Shown one piece after another: positions 1,355-31,497 of a DNA stretch of 38,912 bases; positions within the stretch are counted from its first letter, which is position 1; the number at the start of each line of letters is the position of its first letter. Position numbers and translations under genes: made by a program. This stretch comes from a virus, in IMG/VR virus record IMGVR_UViG_3300031576_000746, positions 1 to 38,912 of that record, one strand, 5' to 3'. The notes beneath the pieces were generated by a model. That model searched no databases, was not told where the DNA came from, and worked only from the letters and a program-made list of their open reading frames with translations.

Positions 1355-1746
1355 GCGCCTACAAGCTGAGCGACGCCGAGTGTCGCTCGATCGCGGTCGC
1401 CCGCTACCGCGGCACGCGGCCGGCCGACCTGGCTATCCGCTACGGCGTCTCGATCCCGACGATCTACGGCGCGATCAAGCGCTCGGCGATCACGTCACGA
1501 GCAGGGCTCGGCACTTGGCCGCCGGACCGGCCGCGGCCCGTTCGACGGCACGCTATCGAGGACATCCGCTACGCCCTCGAGTGGATCCTGTGCTCGTGCG
1601 GCGTCGAGATCATCGCCGAGCCCGACGAGCTCTTCCACGAGCGCCACGAGCCGCTCGTCACGGCCTGGACCGAGCATCGCCGTGACGTTGGCGCCCGCAT
1701 CCTCAGCGTCGCCCAGGAGGCGTCGTTCCACCGGGCCTTCTCGTGA
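1351..1746 (+). CDS. Small helix-turn-helix protein
   Basis: A 131-aa protein with GTG start overlapping the previous stop. Residues about 15-45 hold a resolvase/transposase-type HTH: a helix near RPADLAIRYGVS, a turn, then the recognition helix IPTIYGAIKRS. The rest (LEWILCSCGVEIIAEPDELF, then a basic C-terminus) is not recognised. Lying just before the integrase, it could bind DNA to regulate or assist integration, but this rests on position only. It could also be an early transcription regulator. Confidence 0.6.
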   Translation: MSAYKLSDAECRSIAVARYRGTRPADLAIRYGVSIPTIYGAIKRSAITSRAGLGTWPPDRPRPVRRHAIEDIRYALEWILCSCGVEIIAEPDELFHERHEPLVTAWTEHRRDVGARILSVAQEASFHRAFS

Positions 1747-1880
1747 CGGATCGTCGCGAGCTGGTCCTCGCCCTGGCCGCCGCGATCCGGGAGATCGCGG
1801 AGCGGCGGGCCGCCGAGCGAGCCGCCCGCCGTGCCACACTGACGGTCATCGAGCCGCGTCGAGGAGGACGGGCAGCGTGA
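1743..1880 (+). CDS. 45-aa basic helical protein of unknown function
   Basis: GTG start overlaps the previous stop and its TGA overlaps the GTG of the integrase. Most of the peptide is a predicted amphipathic helix rich in Arg, Ala and Glu (LVLALAAAIREIAERRAA). A GAGGAGG sequence near its 3' end (1861-1867) gives the integrase a ribosome binding site. No family is recognised. Translation of this frame may mainly couple the integrase to the upstream genes. Confidence 0.5.
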   Translation: MTDRRELVLALAAAIREIAERRAAERAARRATLTVIEPRRGGRAA

Positions 1881-3433
1881 TCCGGTCCCTGCCAACCACG
1901 ATCGAGGACCTCCGCGGCCGCCGCGCCGCGCGCTGGATCCGCGAGAGCACGGCCGGCCAGTACGACCGCTATGGGCCCGACGCCCAGGCCGAGCTCGTCG
2001 ATCGCGCGGTCGAGCGCGTCGGCCTCGTCGACACCGGCCTCGGCTGGTCGGCCGCCCACTCGGGTTCGACCGTCCACGCGGCGCCCGCGATGCGGGCCAT
2101 GCTCGCGGCGGCCGCCGCCGGCGCCTTCGACGTCCTCGTCGTCGGCTACGTCGCCCGCTGGCAGCGGAACCTGCGTCAGACGCTCAACCTCCTCGAGGAC
2201 GAGCTCCACCCCGCCGGCGTGGCGGTGTGGTTCTGCGACGAGGAGCTCTTGAGCTCGAACGAGCGCCACTGGGACCAGCTCGTCGACGAGGCCAAGGGCG
2301 CCGAGAGCTGGCTCCGGAAGCACCGCCGGCGGGTCAGGGAGGGCTACGCGGCGAAGCTGGCCACGAAGCGCGACCCTGGCGGCCATCCGCCCTTCGGCTT
2401 CCGCCGGCACGCGACGACGAAGCTCCTCGAGGCGGACCCCGAGCGGGCGGGAGCAGTCGGCCAGGTCTACGAGCTCGCGGCCCGGCGCCTCACCGACCGG
2501 GAGGTCGCCGCGGCGACCTCGCTCGGGCTCTTCACCGTCCGGGGCATCCTCACGAGCCCGCTCTACGCCGGGCGCCTCCGGACGGGCGAGCGGGCCCATT
2601 GGCCGGCGCTCGTCGACGTCGGGCTCTGGGAGACCGTCCAGGCGATCCGGGCCCGCCGGCGGACCCGCGACGGCCGGCCCGGTCGCCGGCGACCGTACGC
2701 GCTCACGATGCTCCATTGCGCCGCCTGCGGCCGCCACCTCATCGGCGACACGGGACGCTACCGCCACCCGGACCCCTGCCCGGCGTTCGTCGCCCGCCGG
2801 CGAGAGCCACGCCATCGCCAGCGGGGCCAGCGCCGGGACATGCCCGGCCATTCCTACCGGGCCGACGAGTACGAGGCGATCGCCCGCGACGTCCTCGGTC
2901 GGGCCGCCCTCGGGTCATCGCTCGTCGCCGACGTCGTCGCCGACGTCGTCGCCGCGACGCGGGATCCGGAGCCCGATCGCCTGGCGCTGGCCAGGATCGG
3001 CCGGGAGCGCGACGCCGCCTTGGTCCGCTACAGGCGCGACCGGGACGCCCGGGCCCTGGAGGCCGCGATGGCGAGCCTCGACGAGCAGGAGCGCGCCGCG
3101 CGCGCCGGTGTCGAGCTCGCCGAGACGATGGACGCCGCCGAGGTCGTCGAGTACCTGCGGGACCTGCCGCGGCTGTGGGACGACGCGCCGGCCTCGAGGC
3201 GCGCCCTGGCCGAGGCGATCTTCGAGCGGATCGAGGTCCTCGGGATCCGGCGGATGCGGATCACGCCGACGCCTGCGGCCATCGCGGCCGGGCTCGCCGA
3301 GGCGTTCTCGAGCGCATCTGCTGGTTATGGTCGGGGCGAGAGGGCTGAAGGCTCCGGTACCCGGCAGATCCGGGGCTGCGCAGTCTCGTTCGACGTCCAG
3401 CCGGTGGCAGCAAGCCGGATCCGCTCGGCTTGA
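1877..3433 (+). CDS. int: Large serine recombinase (phage integrase)
   Basis: A 518-aa protein with GTG start, preceded by GAGGAGG. The frame is open further upstream, but this start fits the family N-terminus and the RBS. The resolvase domain is first, with nucleophile Ser24 in IRESTAGQYD and a second arginine motif YVARWQRNL. The recombinase domain follows (GGHPPFGFRR), then a zinc ribbon starting CAAC near residue 280, then a coiled-coil-like helix rich in Glu, Arg and Ala. The ribbon looks altered: after CAAC only one more nearby Cys (PDPCPAF) is visible. About 45 low-complexity residues follow the conserved part. It would join attP to the host attB by a 2-bp staggered cut through a Ser-DNA link. 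The Gp3-like gene at 35358 is the likely partner for excision. Confidence 0.92.
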   Translation: MIRSLPTTIEDLRGRRAARWIRESTAGQYDRYGPDAQAELVDRAVERVGLVDTGLGWSAAHSGSTVHAAPAMRAMLAAAAAGAFDVLVVGYVARWQRNLRQTLNLLEDELHPAGVAVWFCDEELLSSNERHWDQLVDEAKGAESWLRKHRRRVREGYAAKLATKRDPGGHPPFGFRRHATTKLLEADPERAGAVGQVYELAARRLTDREVAAATSLGLFTVRGILTSPLYAGRLRTGERAHWPALVDVGLWETVQAIRARRRTRDGRPGRRRPYALTMLHCAACGRHLIGDTGRYRHPDPCPAFVARRREPRHRQRGQRRDMPGHSYRADEYEAIARDVLGRAALGSSLVADVVADVVAATRDPEPDRLALARIGRERDAALVRYRRDRDARALEAAMASLDEQERAARAGVELAETMDAAEVVEYLRDLPRLWDDAPASRRALAEAIFERIEVLGIRRMRITPTPAAIAAGLAEAFSSASAGYGRGERAEGSGTRQIRGCAVSFDVQPVAASRIRSA

Positions 3434-10511: not shown

Positions 10512-11479
10512 CCCTCGAGATCGTCGGCAGACCCATCGGCAAGGCCCGCTGGCGACCGATCCCGGCGACCTCGATCGCCACGGACGCGTCGCAGGGACCG
10601 CCCGGCGCCGATGGCGCCCCCGGGCCTCCAGGACCCGCCGGCGAGACGGGTCCGGCTGGTCCGCCGGGAGCGGACGGCCCTGGCGGTTTTCAGGGCCCGC
10701 CCGGCCAGGATGGAGCCGCTGGAGCGCAGGGACCGGAGGGTCCGCAGGGGATCCAGGGACCACCCGGGCCCGCCGGCGCCGATGGCGCTGCCGGCGCTCA
10801 GGGCCCAGCCGGACCGCCGGGGGCGGATTCGACGGTCGCCGGACCGGCAGGGCCGCAAGGTATCCAGGGGATCCAGGGACCACCCGGACCGCAGGGCGAT
10901 CCGGGGCCTCAGGGTTCGGTTGGACCCGAAGGGCCACAGGGGAGCCAGGGGCCAGCTGGTGCCGATTCGACCGTCCCGGGTCCACAAGGGCCGGCGGGCG
11001 CGGATGGCGCGCAGGGGCCGCAGGGTGACGCTGGCCCGCAGGGCATTCAAGGTCCCCAGGGCGACCCCGGCGCCGATGGGGCGGACGGCGCTCCCGGGGC
11101 GGATGGCGCCGCCGGCGTCACCCTGATCCGCCTCTCCGTCGCGGCGCGGACCTACACGAACCAGGGCGCCGGTCCGACCGAGAGCAACGTCGCGGATCGC
11201 GCGATCGTCGACCTCACGGGCAGGACGAACGCGCGGATCCATGGCCACGTCTCGACCCAAGGCGTCAACGCGAGCTGGAAGGTCCAGTACTCGACCGACG
11301 CGTCGGCCTGGTCGGACCTCACGACCGGCATCGCCGCGGCCGGCACGGGCCTGAAGGCCTCGGCTCCGGCCGCGATCCCGGCCGGCGCGAAGCAGCTCGT
11401 CATCCTGCGGGTCGTCGCGACCGGCGGCAACGGCACCGAGGATCCAGTCCTCAACGCGGTCACGGTCGAGATCACGTGA
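10508..11479 (+). CDS. Collagen-like fibre or decoration protein
   Basis: A 323-aa protein. After a 29-residue head, residues 30-203 are almost continuous Gly-X-Y triplets, about 58 in number, with two short breaks at GADSTV. A 120-residue C-terminal beta-rich domain ([16 protein letters not shown] ... [10 protein letters not shown]) looks like a trimerisation or binding head. Collagen-like phage proteins form trimeric stalks on capsids or tail fibres. Its place between portal and capsid genes suggests a head fibre. The next four genes, which overlap, encode glycan enzymes, so the stalk may be glycosylated. No hydroxylase gene was seen. Confidence 0.8.
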
Positions 11480-12213
11480 CGGTCACGGTGGCCATGCCCT
11501 GGCACGGGGCGCCCGAGCTGCTCGAGCGAGCCGTCCGCTCGGTCCTGGCGCAGACGCATCGCGACCTGGTCCTCGTCGTCGTGGGCGACGGGGCGCGACC
11601 GCCGATCGCCTTCAGTCACGACCGCCTGGTGACCTACACGCTGCCCGAGAACCGGGGCCCGTACTTCGCCCAGGAGGTCGTCCTCGAGGCGACGCGGCAC
11701 GAGTGGTACGCGCCGCACGCGGCAGACGACTGGAGCGAGCCCGAGCACCTCGAGCGCCTGCTCGCCCACGGGCACTCCGCCGCCGTCCCGGGCGTCGTGC
11801 GGTGGGAGGAGGGCGGCGGGAGCTTCGTCCACGAGGGCCGCTACGAGGTCGGCGTCTTCCGACCGTCGCGGCTCCGCGAGATCGGCGGCTTCAACGTCGG
11901 CGAGCGGATCGGCCAGGACACCCTCATGCTCAAGCTCCTGGACCTGACGGGCGGGATGGTCGTCGACATGGCGCTCCCCCCGACCTACCACCGCGTCCGG
12001 CGCCCGGGCGCCCTCACGACATCGCCCGAGACCGGCTTCGGCTCGCCGGCGCGGAATGAGATGCGGGCCCGGAACCGCGCGATCTACGCCCGGGCCCAGA
12101 GCCTCGTCGACGATCTGCCGGCGCTGGCGCGCTTCCGCCGGCGGGCGATGTCGCCGGCCCTCCGGGTCCAGGTCGCCGAGCACGCCGGCGAGCTCCGGCG
12201 CCTGATCGCATGA
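11476..12213 (+). CDS. GT-A (family 2-like) glycosyltransferase
   Basis: A 245-aa protein with GTG start overlapping the collagen-like gene's stop. The fold pattern is GT2: strand VTVAMPWHG, helix [15 protein letters not shown], strand LVLVVVGDG, then AADDWSEP (residues 82-89) as the DxD-like metal and nucleotide-sugar site, and a late [12 protein letters not shown] acceptor motif. It lacks membrane spans, so it is cytosolic. It probably adds a sugar to a virion protein. It is first of four coupled glycan genes. Donor and acceptor cannot be read from sequence. Confidence 0.75.
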
Positions 12214-13151
12214 CCGACCTCCGGATCCTGAACCTGACGACGACCGCCGACACCGGCGGCCAGGGCTGGGCCCTGCGCGAGGCCCTGGCCGCGGCGCGGC
12301 CGGGCTGGACCGTCGACGCGATGCGACGCTCCGACACGTGGATCCGCTACCCGTTCCACCGGGACTGGGATCCCGACGTCGCCCGCGAGCTGTGGGCCGC
12401 GGCCGACGTCGTCCACCTCCGCGAATCGCCCGACGCGATCGCGATGCTCGGCGCCCCGCCGCGGCCGCTCGTCGTTCACCACCACGGCACCCGCTACCGG
12501 CGCGACCCGGCGGCCATGTCGGCCCGCTGCCAGGCGGCCGGGGCGATCGAGGTCGCCTCGACGCTCGACCTGGTCCTCGCCGGCGGGCCGCACGTTCGGT
12601 GGCTGCCCGGAGTCGTCGACGTGGAGGCCCTCGAGGCGCTCCGTGCTGCCACCTTCGCCCGCCGGCGCGGTCGGCTCCGGATCTACCACAGCCCCACGAA
12701 CCGGGTGATCAAGGGCACCGACGACGTCGTCCGGGCCGTGACCGCCCTCCGGGCCCGGGGCCTGCCGGTGGAGCTCGAGCTCGTCGAGCGGCTGCCCTAT
12801 GCCGACAACCTCGGGCGGAAGGCCGGGGCGGACATCGTCGTCGACCAGCTGGTGCTGGGCTATGGCCTGAACGCGATCGAGGCCTGGGCGATGGGGATCC
12901 CCGTCGTCGCCGGCGTGGTCGATCCGGCCGTGCGCGCTGAGATGGTCCGCCGGTTCGGCGTCCTGCCCTTCGTCGAGGCGACCCCGCAGACGCTCGAGCG
13001 CGTCCTCGAGCGTCTGGTCCGGAGCCCGACGCGCCGCGCCCGCTCGGCCGCGGTTGGCCGGGCCCACGTCGAGCGCTTCCATTCACAGGCGGCCGTCGTC
13101 GACCGCCTCGAGCCCATCTATCGCGACGCGATCGAGAGGAGATCTCCATGA
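12210..13151 (+). CDS. GT-B (family 4-like) glycosyltransferase
   Basis: A 313-aa protein; ATG overlaps the previous stop (ATGA). The N-terminal half has ILNLTTTADTGGQGWALREA, a typical start of GT4 enzymes, and VVHHHGTRYRRDP. The C-terminal half carries the donor-binding phrases HSPTNRVIKGTDDVVRAV and LGYGLNAIEAWAMGIPVVAG, the latter resembling the GT4 Gly-rich/acidic nucleotide-sugar loop. Shorter than most bacterial GT4 enzymes (about 350-400 aa). It likely acts after the GT2 enzyme to extend a glycan. Confidence 0.72.
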   Translation: MTDLRILNLTTTADTGGQGWALREALAAARPGWTVDAMRRSDTWIRYPFHRDWDPDVARELWAAADVVHLRESPDAIAMLGAPPRPLVVHHHGTRYRRDPAAMSARCQAAGAIEVASTLDLVLAGGPHVRWLPGVVDVEALEALRAATFARRRGRLRIYHSPTNRVIKGTDDVVRAVTALRARGLPVELELVERLPYADNLGRKAGADIVVDQLVLGYGLNAIEAWAMGIPVVAGVVDPAVRAEMVRRFGVLPFVEATPQTLERVLERLVRSPTRRARSAAVGRAHVERFHSQAAVVDRLEPIYRDAIERRSP

Positions 13152-13687
13152 CGTACGACCCGGATGCCTACTGGCTGGAGCGAGGCCGGACCTACGAGGC
13201 GCGCTTTCGCCGCACGTCGGCTCACGCGCAGCAGGAGACGGCGCTCCTCGAGGTCCTCGGGCGGCTGAAGTTCGATTCGGTCCTCGAGGTCGGCGCAGGA
13301 TTCGGCCGGATCGGCCAGCTGATCGCCGATGCGTTCCCGGCCGCCAGCTACGTCGGCGTCGAGCCGTCGCCCGACCTGCGGGCCTCGAGCTCGAACGGCG
13401 ACCGGCGGATCGTCGCGTCGATCGAGGAGGCGGGCGAGCCCGTCGACCTGGTCATCGCGGTCGAGGTGGCCATGCATCAGCCGCCGGACCGGATCGAGGC
13501 CTTCCTCGAGCAGCTCCGCCGGCGATCACGCCGCCAGGTCGTCACGGTCGACTGGGACCAGCCGCTCGAGGCGGCGATCGCCGAGCACAACTTCCTCCAC
13601 GACTACGCCCGCCTGCTCCACACTGACCGGCGCTACCCGGCCAACCGGCGCCAGGGCATCTGGGTGGCGCGCGGCCTGGCCCGCTGA
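13148..13687 (+). CDS. Class I SAM-dependent methyltransferase
   Basis: A 179-aa protein with an AGGAGA ribosome binding site before ATG. Motif I is VLEVGAGFGRIG (residues 45-56), the next strand ends in an acid (YVGVEPS, Glu72), and LVIAVEVAMHQ occupies the motif IV position. Small size and setting among glycosyltransferases suggest a sugar O-methyltransferase that caps a glycan, as in other phage glycan clusters. No DNA-methyltransferase NPPY or PC motif is seen. Confidence 0.75.
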   Translation: MTYDPDAYWLERGRTYEARFRRTSAHAQQETALLEVLGRLKFDSVLEVGAGFGRIGQLIADAFPAASYVGVEPSPDLRASSSNGDRRIVASIEEAGEPVDLVIAVEVAMHQPPDRIEAFLEQLRRRSRRQVVTVDWDQPLEAAIAEHNFLHDYARLLHTDRRYPANRRQGIWVARGLAR

Positions 13688-13692
13688 CGGTT

Positions 13693-14814
13693 GTGGAGCC
13701 GATCGACGCCCTCGCCGGCGAGCGTCACTTCGTCGACCACCTGGTGCCGCTCTGGGCGGCGCTGCCGGCCGAGCTCCGCGGGCGCTTCATGGTGACCGCC
13801 GATCTCCTCGAGCACGCCCGCCGCCTCGGCCTGGCGCCCGAGCTGTACCGCGAGACGCCGGACCGGCCGATCGTCGTCGCCTCGTACGGCGACGTCCGGC
13901 GGGTCCGGCGGATCGGTCGCCGGCGGATCGCGCTCCTGCAGCACGGCATCGGGCAGTCCTACGCCGGCGAGGCCAACGCGGCCGCGACCGGGGCGAGCTA
14001 CTCCGGCGGCGCCGACAACGACGACGTCGGGCTCTTCCTGTGCCCGAACGAGCACTCGGCCGCCCGGTGGCGGGCGACGTACCCGACCGCCGAGGTGGCC
14101 ATAGTCGGCTCGCCGAAGCTCGACGGCCTGCCGCGCCGGGATCCGGCCGCCGACCCGGGGCCGGTCGTCGCGTTCGGGTTCCACTGGGACTGCCGGGTCG
14201 TGCCCGAGACCCGCTCGGGGTTCCACCAGTTCCGGCCGGCGATCGCCGCGGCGGCGCGGCGCTGGACCGTCCTCGGCCACGGCCACCCGCGTCTCCTCGA
14301 CCGCTCGGCGTCGGGTGCCGTCCGGCTATATCGCCAGCTCGGGGTCGAGGTCGTGACCGACTTCGCCGACGTGCTCCGCCGGGCTGACGTCTACGTCTTC
14401 GACAACTCGAGCTCGGGCTACGAGTTCGCGGCCACGCGCCGCCCGGTCGTCGTCCTGGATGCCACCGCCTACCGGCGCAGCGTCGACCACGGGCTCCGCT
14501 TCTGGGAGGCGGCCGACGTCGGCGTCAGGACGGCTCACGCCAGCCAGGTCGTCGGCGCGATCGGCGAGGCCCTCCGGGATCCGCCGGCGCGAGCAGCAGC
14601 GCGCGAGGCGGCACTCGAGCTCGTCTACGCCCACCGCAGCGGGGCGGCCGCCCGGGCGGCCGATGCCGTGACCGCCTGGGCCCGGACGGCGATCGCCCGC
14701 CAGCCGGCCCCCCGCGACGAACGGACGCGCCTCCGGATGGCCCGCATCGCCGGCCGTCGGCCGTCGGATCCGCGCTGGACGTTCACCTCGGGCGAGGTCC
14801 TCGCCCGAGGCTGA
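13693..14814 (+). CDS. CDP-glycerol/teichoic-acid-type polymerase-like transferase
   Basis: A 373-aa GT-B-like protein with GTG start, five bases after the methyltransferase stop. It shows the CDP-glycerol glycerophosphotransferase pattern: ALLQHGIGQSYAGE (the QHG motif), VAIVGSPKLDGL, then RADVYVFDNSSSGYEFA, equivalent to the D.SS..FE motif of TagB/TagF. A basic C-terminal tail of about 60 residues follows. Known relatives add glycerol- or ribitol-phosphate during wall teichoic acid synthesis. Here, without other teichoic genes, it may transfer a phosphorylated polyol or a sugar onto a virion glycan. Confidence 0.68.
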   Translation: MEPIDALAGERHFVDHLVPLWAALPAELRGRFMVTADLLEHARRLGLAPELYRETPDRPIVVASYGDVRRVRRIGRRRIALLQHGIGQSYAGEANAAATGASYSGGADNDDVGLFLCPNEHSAARWRATYPTAEVAIVGSPKLDGLPRRDPAADPGPVVAFGFHWDCRVVPETRSGFHQFRPAIAAAARRWTVLGHGHPRLLDRSASGAVRLYRQLGVEVVTDFADVLRRADVYVFDNSSSGYEFAATRRPVVVLDATAYRRSVDHGLRFWEAADVGVRTAHASQVVGAIGEALRDPPARAAAREAALELVYAHRSGAAARAADAVTAWARTAIARQPAPRDERTRLRMARIAGRRPSDPRWTFTSGEVLARG

Positions 14815-28341: not shown

Positions 28342-29610
28342 GTGACCGCCGTCCGCGCTCTCTTCGGACCGACCGGCAAGCTCCTCCGCGCCGAGACGAC
28401 AGTCGCGCTCACCGCCGCCCCCGAGGGCGCCTGGCCGTGGGGCAACGCCCACCACTTCGGCGACCACACCTACGTCGGCTTTACGAACAACGCCGGCGGT
28501 GTGTCGCTCGCGATCGTGCCCGACGCGGATCCGGATTCGGTCACGATCTCCGACCTCGAGGCCGACGGATTCTGGTCTCCTGCGGACCAGCACAACGCGC
28601 CGGCGCTCTGGCAGCGGTCCGACGGCCGGCTCCTCGCGATCCATGTCGGGCACCAGTCGACGCACGTCTACCAGCGGGTCACGGTGAATACGCTCGGAGC
28701 CGACCCGCTCATCGCCGGCGGCTGGGCGGCCCGTACCGACCTGGACTCGCAGCTCGGCGGGAACACGTACACCTACCCCGACCTCCACCCGTTCGGGGCG
28801 GCCGGCGGCGTCCTCCTGTTCCTCCGGAACGACAACGCCGGCACGAGCTACTGGTCGATCGCGACCTCGAGCGACGACGGCGCCTCCTGGAGCGCGCTCA
28901 CGACCCTGTTCTCCGGCGTCAGGGCCTACGGCCGCAGCCATCGCTCGAGCTCGACCCGGCTCGACGTCCTGGCGATCAACGGCAGCTATGCGGAGGACTT
29001 CGCGGACCTGTTCCACTTCTATGTCGAGAGTGGGTCGCCGTTCAAGACGGACGGCACCGCGATCGGCGGCGGGTTCCCTGTCGCGTTCGCGAACATGACC
29101 CAGGTCTACGACGGCGCATCCGCCGGCGTCCGGGCCCCCGCGGACATCAAGAAGGTGGGCGACGACCTGGCGGCTGTCTGGTTCGTCCAGACCGGCACCC
29201 CCTCCGGGCACATCGGGGAGGACGAGGACTACCTCTACGGACGCTCGAACGCCGGCGGCGCGTGGGCCGTGTCAACCGTGGCGGCGGACATCGGGGCACT
29301 CACCTTCGAGTTCACGGAGGGCGGCCTCGTCATCGACCCGCTCAACCTCGCCCGGCTCCTCGTCTCGCGGCGCGAAGTGTCCGACCTCGGCTCACCCTTC
29401 CGGATGTTCGATGTCAAGAGCCCCGACGACGGCGCGACCTGGCCGGCCGGGATCCCCATCTCCGTCGATGATGGCGAGGCGGCGATGTACCCGGCGATGG
29501 TCCGCGGCGCGCCCGATCCCGCGGCGGTCCGGGGGGTCTGGCTCCAGGGGCCGACCTACACGAGCCAGAATGACTTCTCGACCGGGATCCGGGCGACGGG
29601 TCGGCGCTAG
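28342..29610 (+). CDS. BNR/Asp-box beta-propeller tail protein, possible depolymerase
   Basis: A 422-aa protein, GTG start. Two Asp boxes are visible: SSDDGASW (176-183) and SPDDGATW (360-367). The phrase DQHNAPALWQRSDGRLLAI followed by HVGHQSTHVYQRV (residues 82-113) matches the start of BNR_4 propellers as I recall them, a group that includes polysaccharide lyases and sialidase-like proteins. At the end of the tail module it is probably the receptor-binding protein or an enzyme that cuts a host surface polysaccharide. His and Tyr in the first blade are candidates for catalysis. The stop shares CTAG with the convergent epimerase-like gene. Confidence 0.68.
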   Translation: MTAVRALFGPTGKLLRAETTVALTAAPEGAWPWGNAHHFGDHTYVGFTNNAGGVSLAIVPDADPDSVTISDLEADGFWSPADQHNAPALWQRSDGRLLAIHVGHQSTHVYQRVTVNTLGADPLIAGGWAARTDLDSQLGGNTYTYPDLHPFGAAGGVLLFLRNDNAGTSYWSIATSSDDGASWSALTTLFSGVRAYGRSHRSSSTRLDVLAINGSYAEDFADLFHFYVESGSPFKTDGTAIGGGFPVAFANMTQVYDGASAGVRAPADIKKVGDDLAAVWFVQTGTPSGHIGEDEDYLYGRSNAGGAWAVSTVAADIGALTFEFTEGGLVIDPLNLARLLVSRREVSDLGSPFRMFDVKSPDDGATWPAGIPISVDDGEAAMYPAMVRGAPDPAAVRGVWLQGPTYTSQNDFSTGIRATGRR

Positions 29611-30458
29611 CGCCAGTCGTACTCGAACGCCGCGCCCATCTCGGCGAAGCACGGGTCGCCCGTCATGGCGGCGAGGGTGGCCATTTGGGAACGGTAGACC
29701 GCGACGTACGACGGGCCGATCTCGCTCCGATGTTCGAGGTCGTACCACGGCATCCGGCCCGGTTGGCGGAAGTGCCCCAGGTCGGCCCGGATCGCGCCCA
29801 GGGCGGAGACCAGGGCAGCGCGCACCGCCTCCGACCTGGTCGCGGCCCACTCGTCGTACAGGCCGTATGCCGCGAAGATCGCGCCGTTGAGGACGGGGTC
29901 CGGCGGGTCGTCGGGATACTCCTCGAGCCACAGCCCCGTTGCGGTCATGCGTGCGACCGGCGACGGGCCGAGGAGGGCCGGCAGGAGCCGCTCGGCCATC
30001 TGGCGATCGCCGAGCCGGACCGCGAGCGAGAGCGCCTGGCCCTGATCCATGGCCGAGTACCAGGGTGCGGCGAGCGTGTAGCCGCCGCCGGCGAAGTCGA
30101 AGCCGTACGGCAGGAGCGTGAAGCCGTCGACGTCGACCGTGGCCGCCTCTAGGAGCTCGAGCATCGCGCTGGCCTCCTCGGTCCGCCCCCAGGCGAGGAA
30201 CGTCAGGCCCGTCTGGGCGGTCGATCCCGGGTGGAGGGTGCCGTCGACCACGATCGGGTTCGGATGGGCCTCGCGGACGGCGTAGGGGTCGCCCGTGGGT
30301 AGCTCGCGCACGTCGAGCTCGACCCCCCGGTCGCAGGCCGGCGTCGCCGGCGCCAGGGCGGCTCGGACCAGTGGCTGGACCTGCGAGACCCCGACGATCG
30401 CGCCGACGGTGACCCACGCGACGATGGCCGCGAGCTGCGTGCCACGTGGCCTGGCCAC
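29607..30458 (-). CDS. Membrane-anchored D-glucuronyl C5-epimerase-like protein
   Basis: A 283-aa protein on the opposite strand, GTG start (CAC at 30456-30458) two bases after the stop of the small membrane gene. An N-terminal span (about residues 8-30) suggests an anchor with the domain outside the membrane. The rest follows the C-terminal domain of glucuronyl C5-epimerases: PWYSAMDQGQALSLAVR (132-148), LWLEEYPDDPP (176-186), VLNGAIFAAYGLYDEW (189-204) and WYDLEHR (238-244). Tyr181 and Tyr239 match positions of family catalytic tyrosines as I recall. The third motif, YHxxH in many members, is VYRSQ (254-258), so activity is uncertain. The family turns D-glucuronate into L-iduronate in polymers. 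A role in altering the host surface glycan is inference. Confidence 0.7.
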   Translation of the reverse strand: MARPRGTQLAAIVAWVTVGAIVGVSQVQPLVRAALAPATPACDRGVELDVRELPTGDPYAVREAHPNPIVVDGTLHPGSTAQTGLTFLAWGRTEEASAMLELLEAATVDVDGFTLLPYGFDFAGGGYTLAAPWYSAMDQGQALSLAVRLGDRQMAERLLPALLGPSPVARMTATGLWLEEYPDDPPDPVLNGAIFAAYGLYDEWAATRSEAVRAALVSALGAIRADLGHFRQPGRMPWYDLEHRSEIGPSYVAVYRSQMATLAAMTGDPCFAEMGAAFEYDWR

Positions 30459-30460
30459 CC

Positions 30461-30586
30461 CTAGATCATCCGGGCGATGTCGCCCTTGACCGCGAGGTAC
30501 ACGAAGACGACGACCGCCAGCATGACCAGACCGAAAATGAGGAGCGCGAACCGCTTCCAGTCGGTCATGCCCTCGGGATCGTTCAT
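30461..30586 (-). CDS. 41-aa single-span membrane peptide before the epimerase-like gene
   Basis: Read on the - strand from ATG (30586) with a strong GGAGGGGAG ribosome site upstream. A polar start (MNDPEGMTDWKRF) leads into a membrane span (ALLIFGLVMLAVVVFVYLAV) and a short basic tail. It ends two bases before the GTG of the epimerase-like gene, so the two form an operon and the peptide may be a membrane partner. No family known. Confidence 0.6.
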   Translation of the reverse strand: MNDPEGMTDWKRFALLIFGLVMLAVVVFVYLAVKGDIARMI

Positions 30587-30759: not shown

Positions 30760-30933
30760 ATGACCCAGAAGCCTCGCACCCGAGAGCAGATCCTCGCCGA
30801 CATGGAGGCCGAGATCGAGCGCGCCTCGGAGCGCGCCGTCAGGAAGGCTCGGGCGCGTCTCGCTCGGCTCGAGCAGCGCCCCGCGCCGCGGCCTTCGCCG
30901 CCCGCTTCGTCAGGGCCCACTCCCGGGCGTTGA
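30760..30933 (+). CDS. 57-aa helical protein overlapping the repressor gene antisense
   Basis: ATG 30760 has AGGAGGG (30746-30752) seven bases upstream. The first 40 residues form one charged helix (TREQILADMEAEIERASERA, then Arg/Ala-rich) and the end is Pro-rich. The last 95 bases overlap the 3' end of the - strand repressor gene. The strong RBS and non-random helix support it; the overlap is unusual. Could be an early regulator or a repressor antagonist, but nothing shows this directly. Confidence 0.5.
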   Translation: MTQKPRTREQILADMEAEIERASERAVRKARARLARLEQRPAPRPSPPASSGPTPGR

Positions 30934-31162
30934 GCGCCTCGGGCTCGAGGAGCTCGATCGGCTCGCACTCGAAGAGCTCGGCGAGCTTCTTGATCTGCCA
31001 GGCATCCGGCAGGTGCGGCTCGTCCGGATCCTCCCATCGCCGATACGTCGCCTCGCTCGTGCCGGCGGCGATGCCGACGGTCTTCTGGGATCCGTGCCCG
31101 ATCCGCTTCCCGATGAGCGTCGCCGCGAAGGCGCGCTTGTAGGTCTGCTGATCGTCGGTCAC
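30839..31162 (-). CDS. XRE-type HTH repressor (lysogeny control)
   Basis: A 107-aa protein. The frame is open to 31252, but GTG at 31162 begins the conserved part and sits seven bases after a -10-like box. A HTH is at GSQKTVGIAAGTSEATYRRW (about residues 25-44): helix, turn with GTS, recognition helix. DAWQIKKLAELFECEPIELLEPE is the typical XRE C-terminal helix end. The tail is Ala/Arg-rich. Divergent from the Cro-like gene, it is the likely immunity repressor, though short for a CI with a dimerisation domain. No RBS precedes GTG. Confidence 0.72.
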   Translation of the reverse strand: MTDDQQTYKRAFAATLIGKRIGHGSQKTVGIAAGTSEATYRRWEDPDEPHLPDAWQIKKLAELFECEPIELLEPEALNAREWALTKRAAKAAARGAARAERDAPEPS

Positions 31163-31167
31163 TGACA

Positions 31168-31182
31168 GGACAGTAGGTGTCC
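31168..31182. promoter_or_regulatory. Candidate operator over the repressor promoter
   Basis: Inverted repeat GGACA-N5-TGTCC (31168-31182). It covers the -10-like box of the repressor promoter, so the repressor or the Cro-like protein binding here would switch that promoter off. A single half-site copy GGACA occurs at about 31213-31217. Confidence 0.4.
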
Positions 31183-31198
31183 GTCGCGGCTGGAACCA
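31170..31198 (-). promoter_or_regulatory. Repressor promoter, apparently leaderless
   Basis: On the - strand TGGTTC (31193-31198), 17 bases, then TACTGT (31170-31175), then seven bases to GTG at 31162. The -10 fits TAnnnT; the -35 is weak. The start codon would be the first transcribed base, which explains the absence of an RBS. Confidence 0.42.
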
Positions 31199-31246
31199 CA
31201 GCACAGATTGCCGGACAGGATCAACGGCGAGCGTCAAAAGTACCTC

Positions 31247-31275
31247 TTGCATGTCTCCGTCAGATTTGCTAGGTT
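31247..31275 (+). promoter_or_regulatory. Cro-like gene promoter, apparently leaderless
   Basis: TTGCAT (31247-31252), exactly 17 bases, then TAGGTT (31270-31275), then six bases to ATG 31282. Transcription would begin at or next to the ATG, and no ribosome binding site is visible. This is the expected early lytic promoter of the rightward operon. Confidence 0.48.
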
Positions 31276-31281
31276 ACGTCC

Positions 31282-31497
31282 ATGCACGACGGACGCAAGG
31301 GCTACGCGAAGGAACTGGTGCGCCAGCGCACGGGCCGCGAGGTCGCCGAGGTCCTTCGCGACCTCTACGTCGCGAAGCGGCACACCCAGCAGGAGATCGC
31401 CGCGGCCCTGGGCGTGAGCCGGATGGCGATCAGCGCCTGGCTCGCCGAGTACGGCATCACCCGCGACGACCGCCCGCCGGTGGAGATCCCGGCATGA
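31282..31497 (+). CDS. Cro/excise-like small HTH protein
   Basis: A 71-aa protein, first gene of the rightward early operon. The HTH is clear: HTQQEIAAALGVSRMAISAW (about residues 34-53), with a short basic N-terminal helix before it (KELVRQRTGREVAEVLRDLY). Size and place opposite the repressor fit Cro, which would shut off repressor synthesis. An Xis-like or antirepressor role is possible, but the Gp3-like gene fits excision better. Confidence 0.65.
   Translation: MHDGRKGYAKELVRQRTGREVAEVLRDLYVAKRHTQQEIAAALGVSRMAISAWLAEYGITRDDRPPVEIPA

Follow-up and report, generated by a model that had tools for sequence, protein, structure and literature searches.

A predicted membrane-anchored uronosyl C5-epimerase encoded beside the last tail gene of a temperate siphophage

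We report that a temperate siphophage codes for a membrane-anchored, single-domain member of the glucuronyl C5-epimerase (Glce) family, whose gene abuts the last tail gene and lies beside a candidate lysogeny control region. The window, i.e. the whole stretch of DNA analyzed here, comprises positions 1 to 38,912 (38,912 nucleotides) of the IMG/VR virus record IMGVR_UViG_3300031576_000746, and all positions are given as in this window. The observations as a whole are best explained, with moderate probability, by an anchored, extracytoplasmic uronosyl C5-epimerase that modifies the host surface polysaccharide during lysogeny. While the family itself is known, neither PHROGs nor the viral structure library nor the literature searched (open papers only) contains a counterpart to a phage-borne, membrane-anchored C5-epimerase serving in lysogenic conversion, and in that literature we found no earlier phage C5-epimerase.

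Family, fold and active-site residues of the phage protein

The open reading frame of the epimerase, which starts with a GTG codon, is genuinely coding: the correlation of its codon usage with that of the other genes of the phage is 0.955 (range among the other genes 0.942-0.982), as against 0.40-0.44 in the shifted and 0.34-0.77 in the antisense frames. The sole Pfam family found in its product is C5-epim_C (PF06662; E 3.3e-18, 66.3 bits, far above the curated cut-off of 23.3). Sequence searches of solved chains recovered only the human and zebrafish glucuronyl C5-epimerases (E about 1e-5), and a profile built from 79 relatives reaches human Glce at 9e-43. PHROGs, PADLOC and NCBIfam returned no match to the protein, and a single-sequence scan of viral contigs returned no relative, alignments being required for their detection.

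The AlphaFold model obtained with the 79-sequence alignment (mean pLDDT 91.6) consists of one N-terminal helix (residues 6-35) followed by an alpha-helical domain only. When it was compared with the PDB using Foldseek, all 8 matches at E<=0.001 were to Glce from human and zebrafish (E 4.5e-7 to 2.1e-6; query TM 0.55-0.57), with the cellobiose 2-epimerases ranking far behind; the viral structure library held nothing matching the model at E<=0.001. The 283-residue phage protein has neither the beta-hairpin nor the beta-sandwich domain of the animal enzymes, and many prokaryotic relatives (260-340 residues) are likewise too short to contain them.

The initial annotation, made from the DNA alone, had described the product as glucuronyl C5-epimerase-like, with a membrane anchor preceding four motifs ordered as in the C-terminal domain of these enzymes. 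The motifs SAMDQGQALS, LEEYPDDPP, VLNGAIFAAYGLYD and WYDLEHR are indeed present and follow the order of C5-epim_C, and the identification is borne out by the Pfam match, the fold and the catalytic residues: both the profile search and the structural comparison that had been proposed as checks lead to Glce, and by alignment the tyrosines and the glutamate of the cleft are in place. The anchor, too, was recovered, both as a stretch at about residues 9-27 with a best 19-residue hydropathy of 2.03 and as the first helix of the model. It sits at the N-terminus, in place of any virion-attachment domain, and the positive-inside rule points to an N-in/C-out topology.

Table 1. Features of the epimerase locus discussed in the text, with window coordinates.
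Feature	Position	Strand	Basis
Last tail gene, BNR_4 beta-propeller; possible uronate-active tail spike	28342..29610	(+)	PF15892
Membrane-anchored C5-epimerase-like protein, 283 aa	29607..30458	(-)	ORF, Pfam, AlphaFold, Foldseek, codon usage
C5-epim_C domain, residues 117-274	29637..30110	(-)	Pfam PF06662
Y251 (= human Y578, general base), followed by V-A-V-Y replacing H-x-x-H	29694..29708	(-)	alignment
Y239 (= human Y560)	29742..29744	(-)	alignment
N191 (= human N510)	29886..29888	(-)	alignment
E180-Y181 (= human E499, proton donor, and Y500)	29916..29921	(-)	alignment; PMC13308652, PMC12834895
WYSAMDQG motif, residues 133-140	30039..30062	(-)	alignment
N-terminal membrane helix, residues 9-27	30378..30434	(-)	hydropathy and AlphaFold helix 6-35
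Membrane protein of 41 aa with a single helix; its gene is the first of the operon	30461..30586	(-)	strong ribosome site (GGGGGAGGGGAG)
HTH regulator upstream of the epimerase operon, candidate repressor	30839..31252	(-)	PHROG 8 transcriptional regulator, weak, 0.0038
Divergent HTH protein in Cro-like position	31282..31497	(+)	PHROG HTH matches, best 2.4e-6

The published catalytic residues of Glce are E499, Y500, N510, Y560 and Y578 (PMC13308652), with Y578 acting as the base and E499 as the acid in the human enzyme (PMC12834895). Sequence alignment indicates that all five are kept in the phage protein, as E180, Y181, N191, Y239 and Y251. An offset of +90 in the numbering of the human chain, obtained by setting the tyrosine of its YHTTH motif as Y578, reproduces Y500, N510, Y560 and Y578 together, and the profile alignment pairs the tyrosine of the YxxxH motif (phage Y251) with human Y578, which reads Phe in chain 6i01. 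D138, within the first motif, is common only to the cellular homolog L058 among the aligned sequences, the rest having A or T at this position.

On one point the initial annotation needs correction. It had the third motif departing from YHxxH; the third motif, VLNG, is canonical, with N in 93/93 and G in 92/93 aligned sequences, and the oddity lies in the fifth, which reads Y251-V-A-V-Y255, with V252 and Y255 replacing both histidines of YHxxH. These histidines are common in the family (87 of the 93 aligned sequences have H at position 252 and 80 of the 93 at position 255) and are absent from the published list of catalytic residues.

Genomic context and recurrent association with tail genes

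The window is that of a temperate siphophage, coding for a serine integrase, terminase, portal, head protease, capsid, tail terminator and tape measure, along with an exonuclease and a recombination directionality factor. Its first frame (positions 1-120) opens with a run of VRDA repeats. Capsid searches did not identify the host. The integrase and the terminase did so: copies 73% and 53% identical, respectively, are found in genomes of a single Chloroflexota class, the best terminase match among known phages being 43% identical. The class searched was defined from the genome of L058, and these matches indicate that the host is probably a Chloroflexota bacterium of that same class. Of 177 genomes from one Chloroflexota class, 64 contain relatives of the integrase (1682-3433, plus strand), often with internal stops; these mark integrated elements that are abundant and in part decaying.

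In the tree, the neighbor of the phage epimerase with the best support (99/91) is likewise L058, both branches being long, so that such a join can be false. The pairing is nevertheless supported by independent agreement in size, membrane anchor, the retained D138 and the missing loop before EEYP. The genes around L058 code for a methyltransferase, a GT4 glycosyltransferase, a Wzx-type flippase and a WbaP-type sugar transferase, and this placement within a polysaccharide gene cluster makes it very likely that L058 naturally acts on a surface polysaccharide.

The phage epimerase gene is transcribed against the tail genes and next to the lysogeny control region, as had been stated at the outset. 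It is convergent with the BNR_4 tail gene, the two frames sharing 4 bases at their stops, and belongs to a leftward two-gene operon that lies beside a pair of HTH genes, away from the lytic late operons and on the opposite strand from the tail genes. Such an HTH pair beside the operon is the usual layout of immunity regions, which makes expression in lysogeny plausible; given its operon position beside the lysogeny regulator, the epimerase is probably expressed in the lysogen. Promoter scans, restricted to the sigma-70 consensus, and terminator scans found none. The other gene of the operon, for the 41-residue membrane protein, has its stop 2 bases ahead of the epimerase start, and its product could be either a partner of the epimerase or an independent exclusion factor.

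We compared the window with the corresponding loci of the Bradyrhizobium phage ppBeUSDA76-1 and of L032, L034 and L035. In 5/5 of these unrelated phage loci, a small set for which the features to compare were chosen after the first loci had been seen, the C5-epimerase gene directly abuts the last tail gene. The arrangement is convergent in the window, L032 (gap of 6 bases) and L035 (gap of 3 bases); in the remaining two loci, those of the Bradyrhizobium phage and L034, the epimerase gene comes after the tail gene on the same strand, i.e. in late tail orientation. The abutting tail protein has a right-handed beta-helix in L032 and L034, with an additional rhamnogalacturonase/epimerase-type lyase domain in the latter; it has a weak beta-helix in the Bradyrhizobium phage (L002) and belongs to a tail-fibre family without a glycan domain in L035. 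On these domain assignments, the last tail gene is predicted to code for a glycan-active spike in three or four of the 5 loci. The eight viral-contig matches L025-L031 and L033 were not counted as phage, for they cluster with enzymes of Streptomyces, and one of them is identical to a gene of Streptomyces wuyuanensis.

Among further observations on these genes, the epimerase gene of L034 (L034:7731-8705) has a third-codon-position G+C of 0.35, as against 0.45-0.68 in most of its phage neighbors, a sign of recent acquisition. On the Streptomyces plasmids L003, L004 and L005, genes of the C5-epimerase family coding for proteins of ~580 residues directly follow those for large FG-GAP repeat proteins, and a HINT-domain polymorphic-toxin gene is also nearby in L004 and L005, so that the same kind of neighborhood recurs. 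Records of head-protease relatives, many of them fragments, had the C5-epimerase domain in 0 of 17 cases.

The last tail gene of the window matches BNR_4 (PF15892) at 2.8e-8 (33.9 bits, cut-off 27.3). By inspection, H84, H104, Y145 and R162 of its product occur in the order seen in the PL25 lyases, the spacing of 20 between H84 and H104 being that of H95 and H115 in PL25; the single-sequence structure model has a pLDDT of 31. Searches of viral contigs, the phage collection and the Chloroflexota host class yielded no relatives of this protein. The PL25 ulvan lyases are seven-bladed BNR_4 propellers that act on rhamnose-glucuronate polymers through an active site of His, Tyr and Arg; the C5 hydrogen of iduronate points the opposite way from that of glucuronate, and in docking the iduronate units lay apart from the catalytic residues (PMC13193363).

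A sibling phage shares the large tail protein (65%), the exonuclease and the directionality factor with the phage of the window, and it lacks both the BNR_4 gene and the epimerase, with a collagen-like tail gene followed by a glycosyltransferase-like gene (L167:6307-7533) in the epimerase slot. This joint absence makes the two genes look like one exchangeable cassette. Separately, the window itself has a plus-strand glycosylation cassette (11476-14814), with a GT2 glycosyltransferase, a GT1-like gene, a methyltransferase and a CDP-glycerol glycerophosphotransferase-like gene, flanked on one side by a collagen-like gene (10514-11479) and on the other by the head protease gene. The occurrence of glycosyltransferase genes beside collagen-like genes in both phages suggests that the collagen-like virion proteins are glycosylated.

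Proposed function and alternative explanations

We consider it likely that the phage protein possesses uronosyl C5-epimerase activity, a well-supported chemistry, and reasonably probable that it acts outside the cytoplasm on a host polysaccharide. In the mechanism we propose, the protein, comprising the alpha-helical catalytic domain alone, would be tethered by its N-terminal helix to the outer face of the cytoplasmic membrane. Y251 would remove the C5 proton from a glucuronic (or similar) residue inside the polysaccharide, and E180 would give a proton back from the opposite face, yielding iduronic acid (or the matching C5 epimer). In a lysogen, the uronic acids of the surface polysaccharide would be altered during export or after assembly, and the product might then be neither bound nor cut by the spike of the phage itself or by related phages. 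Escape from the spike would be the likely benefit, given that the adjoining last tail gene appears to code for a uronate-active BNR_4 propeller.

That the epimerase protects the lysogen against superinfection is possible, if short of probable; the recurrence of the gene beside glycan-active tail spikes lends this support, and we know of no epimerase that has been found to cause superinfection exclusion. More speculatively, and on balance we think it unlikely, spike and epimerase might constitute one exchangeable cassette in which the spike acts on a uronic-acid polysaccharide in one C5 configuration and the prophage epimerase inverts it, so that lysogens could no longer be recognized or cut by their own phage. 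In two of the five phage loci, the late tail orientation of the epimerase gene does not favor its expression in lysogeny alone. The original interpretation, namely that the enzyme changes uronic acids of the host surface polysaccharide, perhaps with a block to superinfection, is supported by the family match, the fold, the cleft residues and the presence of L058 in a surface-polysaccharide cluster.

The loss of the near-invariant YHxxH histidines means that epimerase activity could be altered or lost, and the protein might be a C5-epimerase fold that no longer epimerizes, an inactive or binding-only form that, for instance, masks the polysaccharide or blocks an entry channel together with the 41-residue membrane protein. 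The long end branch of the protein in the tree would fit such a form, and small membrane proteins are common superinfection-exclusion factors. Random loss of function, however, is unlikely to have spared all five published catalytic residues. Moreover, the Bradyrhizobium phage protein is without both histidines, and L035, L102 and L107 are without one or both, yet all four retain the Y239 and Y251 tyrosines; hence, histidine loss appears to be a tendency of divergent members, and we regard an inactive fold as rather unlikely. To a different chemistry in the same fold and position we assign a similarly low probability: abstraction of the C5 proton is common to epimerases and lyases, and the protein could be a C5-epimerase specific for a different uronate, or a lyase of uronates that abstracts the proton through the same tyrosine, and could remodel the host polysaccharide at entry or lysis and not in lysogeny. 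The same-strand placement after the tail genes in the Bradyrhizobium phage and L034 is in line with this, whereas the window gene is on the strand opposite to the tail genes and adjoins a regulator, its product bears a membrane anchor and not a virion-attachment domain, and its sequence family is specifically Glce-like.

The substrate could alternatively be a glycan made by the phage itself, through the glycosyltransferases and methyltransferase of the cassette described above, e.g. on the collagen-like virion protein, whose gene that cassette adjoins. We hold this to be improbable, for virion assembly takes place in the cytoplasm, whereas the predicted orientation of the epimerase is outward; moreover, about 15 kb separate its gene from the cassette, which is on the opposite strand, and no uronate-making gene was recognized. 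Even less credible is the capture of a host gene through misassembly or mis-binning: the best relatives of the epimerase are cellular, but phage genes flank it on both sides, its stop overlaps that of the tail gene and its codon usage is phage-like.

Implications and comparison with known systems

Most of the surface conversions known from prophages work by adding a group, such as glucose or acetyl. If the proposal of an extracytoplasmic uronosyl C5-epimerase is true, the enzyme would reshape the polysaccharide backbone without a donor substrate and from outside the cytoplasm, and its pairing with the spike, if real, would represent lysogenic conversion of a new, stereochemical kind, leading to a testable prediction on how temperate phages avoid their own receptor. 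Very few prokaryotic enzymes that make iduronate have been characterized, and the phage protein would also add to this list a compact form with a single domain, which is of interest for heparin-type synthesis. A phage whose host probably belongs to a little-studied class of Chloroflexota is an additional gain.

Animal Glce is membrane-anchored, as is the phage epimerase. The human (6HZZ) and zebrafish (4PW2) enzymes share with it the alpha-helical catalytic domain (PF06662), the EEYP...LNG signature and the equivalents of Y560 and Y578; in contrast, the phage-encoded protein lacks the beta-hairpin and beta-sandwich domains, and hence is not the known Glce dimer, and it reads YVAVY in place of YHTTH. 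The bacterial single-domain proteins annotated as 'D-glucuronyl C5-epimerase family' (L058, L064) are of the same family and size, and L058 has in addition the anchor and a surface polysaccharide gene setting, whereas the phage version is phage-carried, has lost the histidines and comes without an accompanying polysaccharide operon. According to PMC13308652, no bacterial glucuronyl C5-epimerase other than the Bermanella RED65 enzyme has been identified. Agl32 of Halobacterium, an archaeal glucuronyl C5-epimerase, is likewise a single alpha-helical domain and makes iduronate on a short glycan; it lacks all five Glce catalytic residues (PMC13308652), unlike the phage protein, which keeps all five.

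The one deposited phage relative, WAX24363.1 of Bradyrhizobium phage ppBeUSDA76-1, is annotated as a 'hypothetical protein' and has the same domain encoded directly after a tail fibre gene; it differs in its 29% identity, in having no evident membrane anchor and in being co-directional with the tail genes. Through seroconverting genes, such as gtr of P22 and gtr/oac of Shigella phages, prophages change the surface glycan recognized by the phage's own spike. The phage epimerase would work likewise, if our reading is right, although the proteins are unrelated and it would alter the stereochemistry of an existing sugar without adding glucose or acetate. Modification by a phage of its own receptor has also been proposed for Kapi1 (PMC8787464), which thus offers a parallel in the target of the modification, with the epimerase chemistry proposed here being different.
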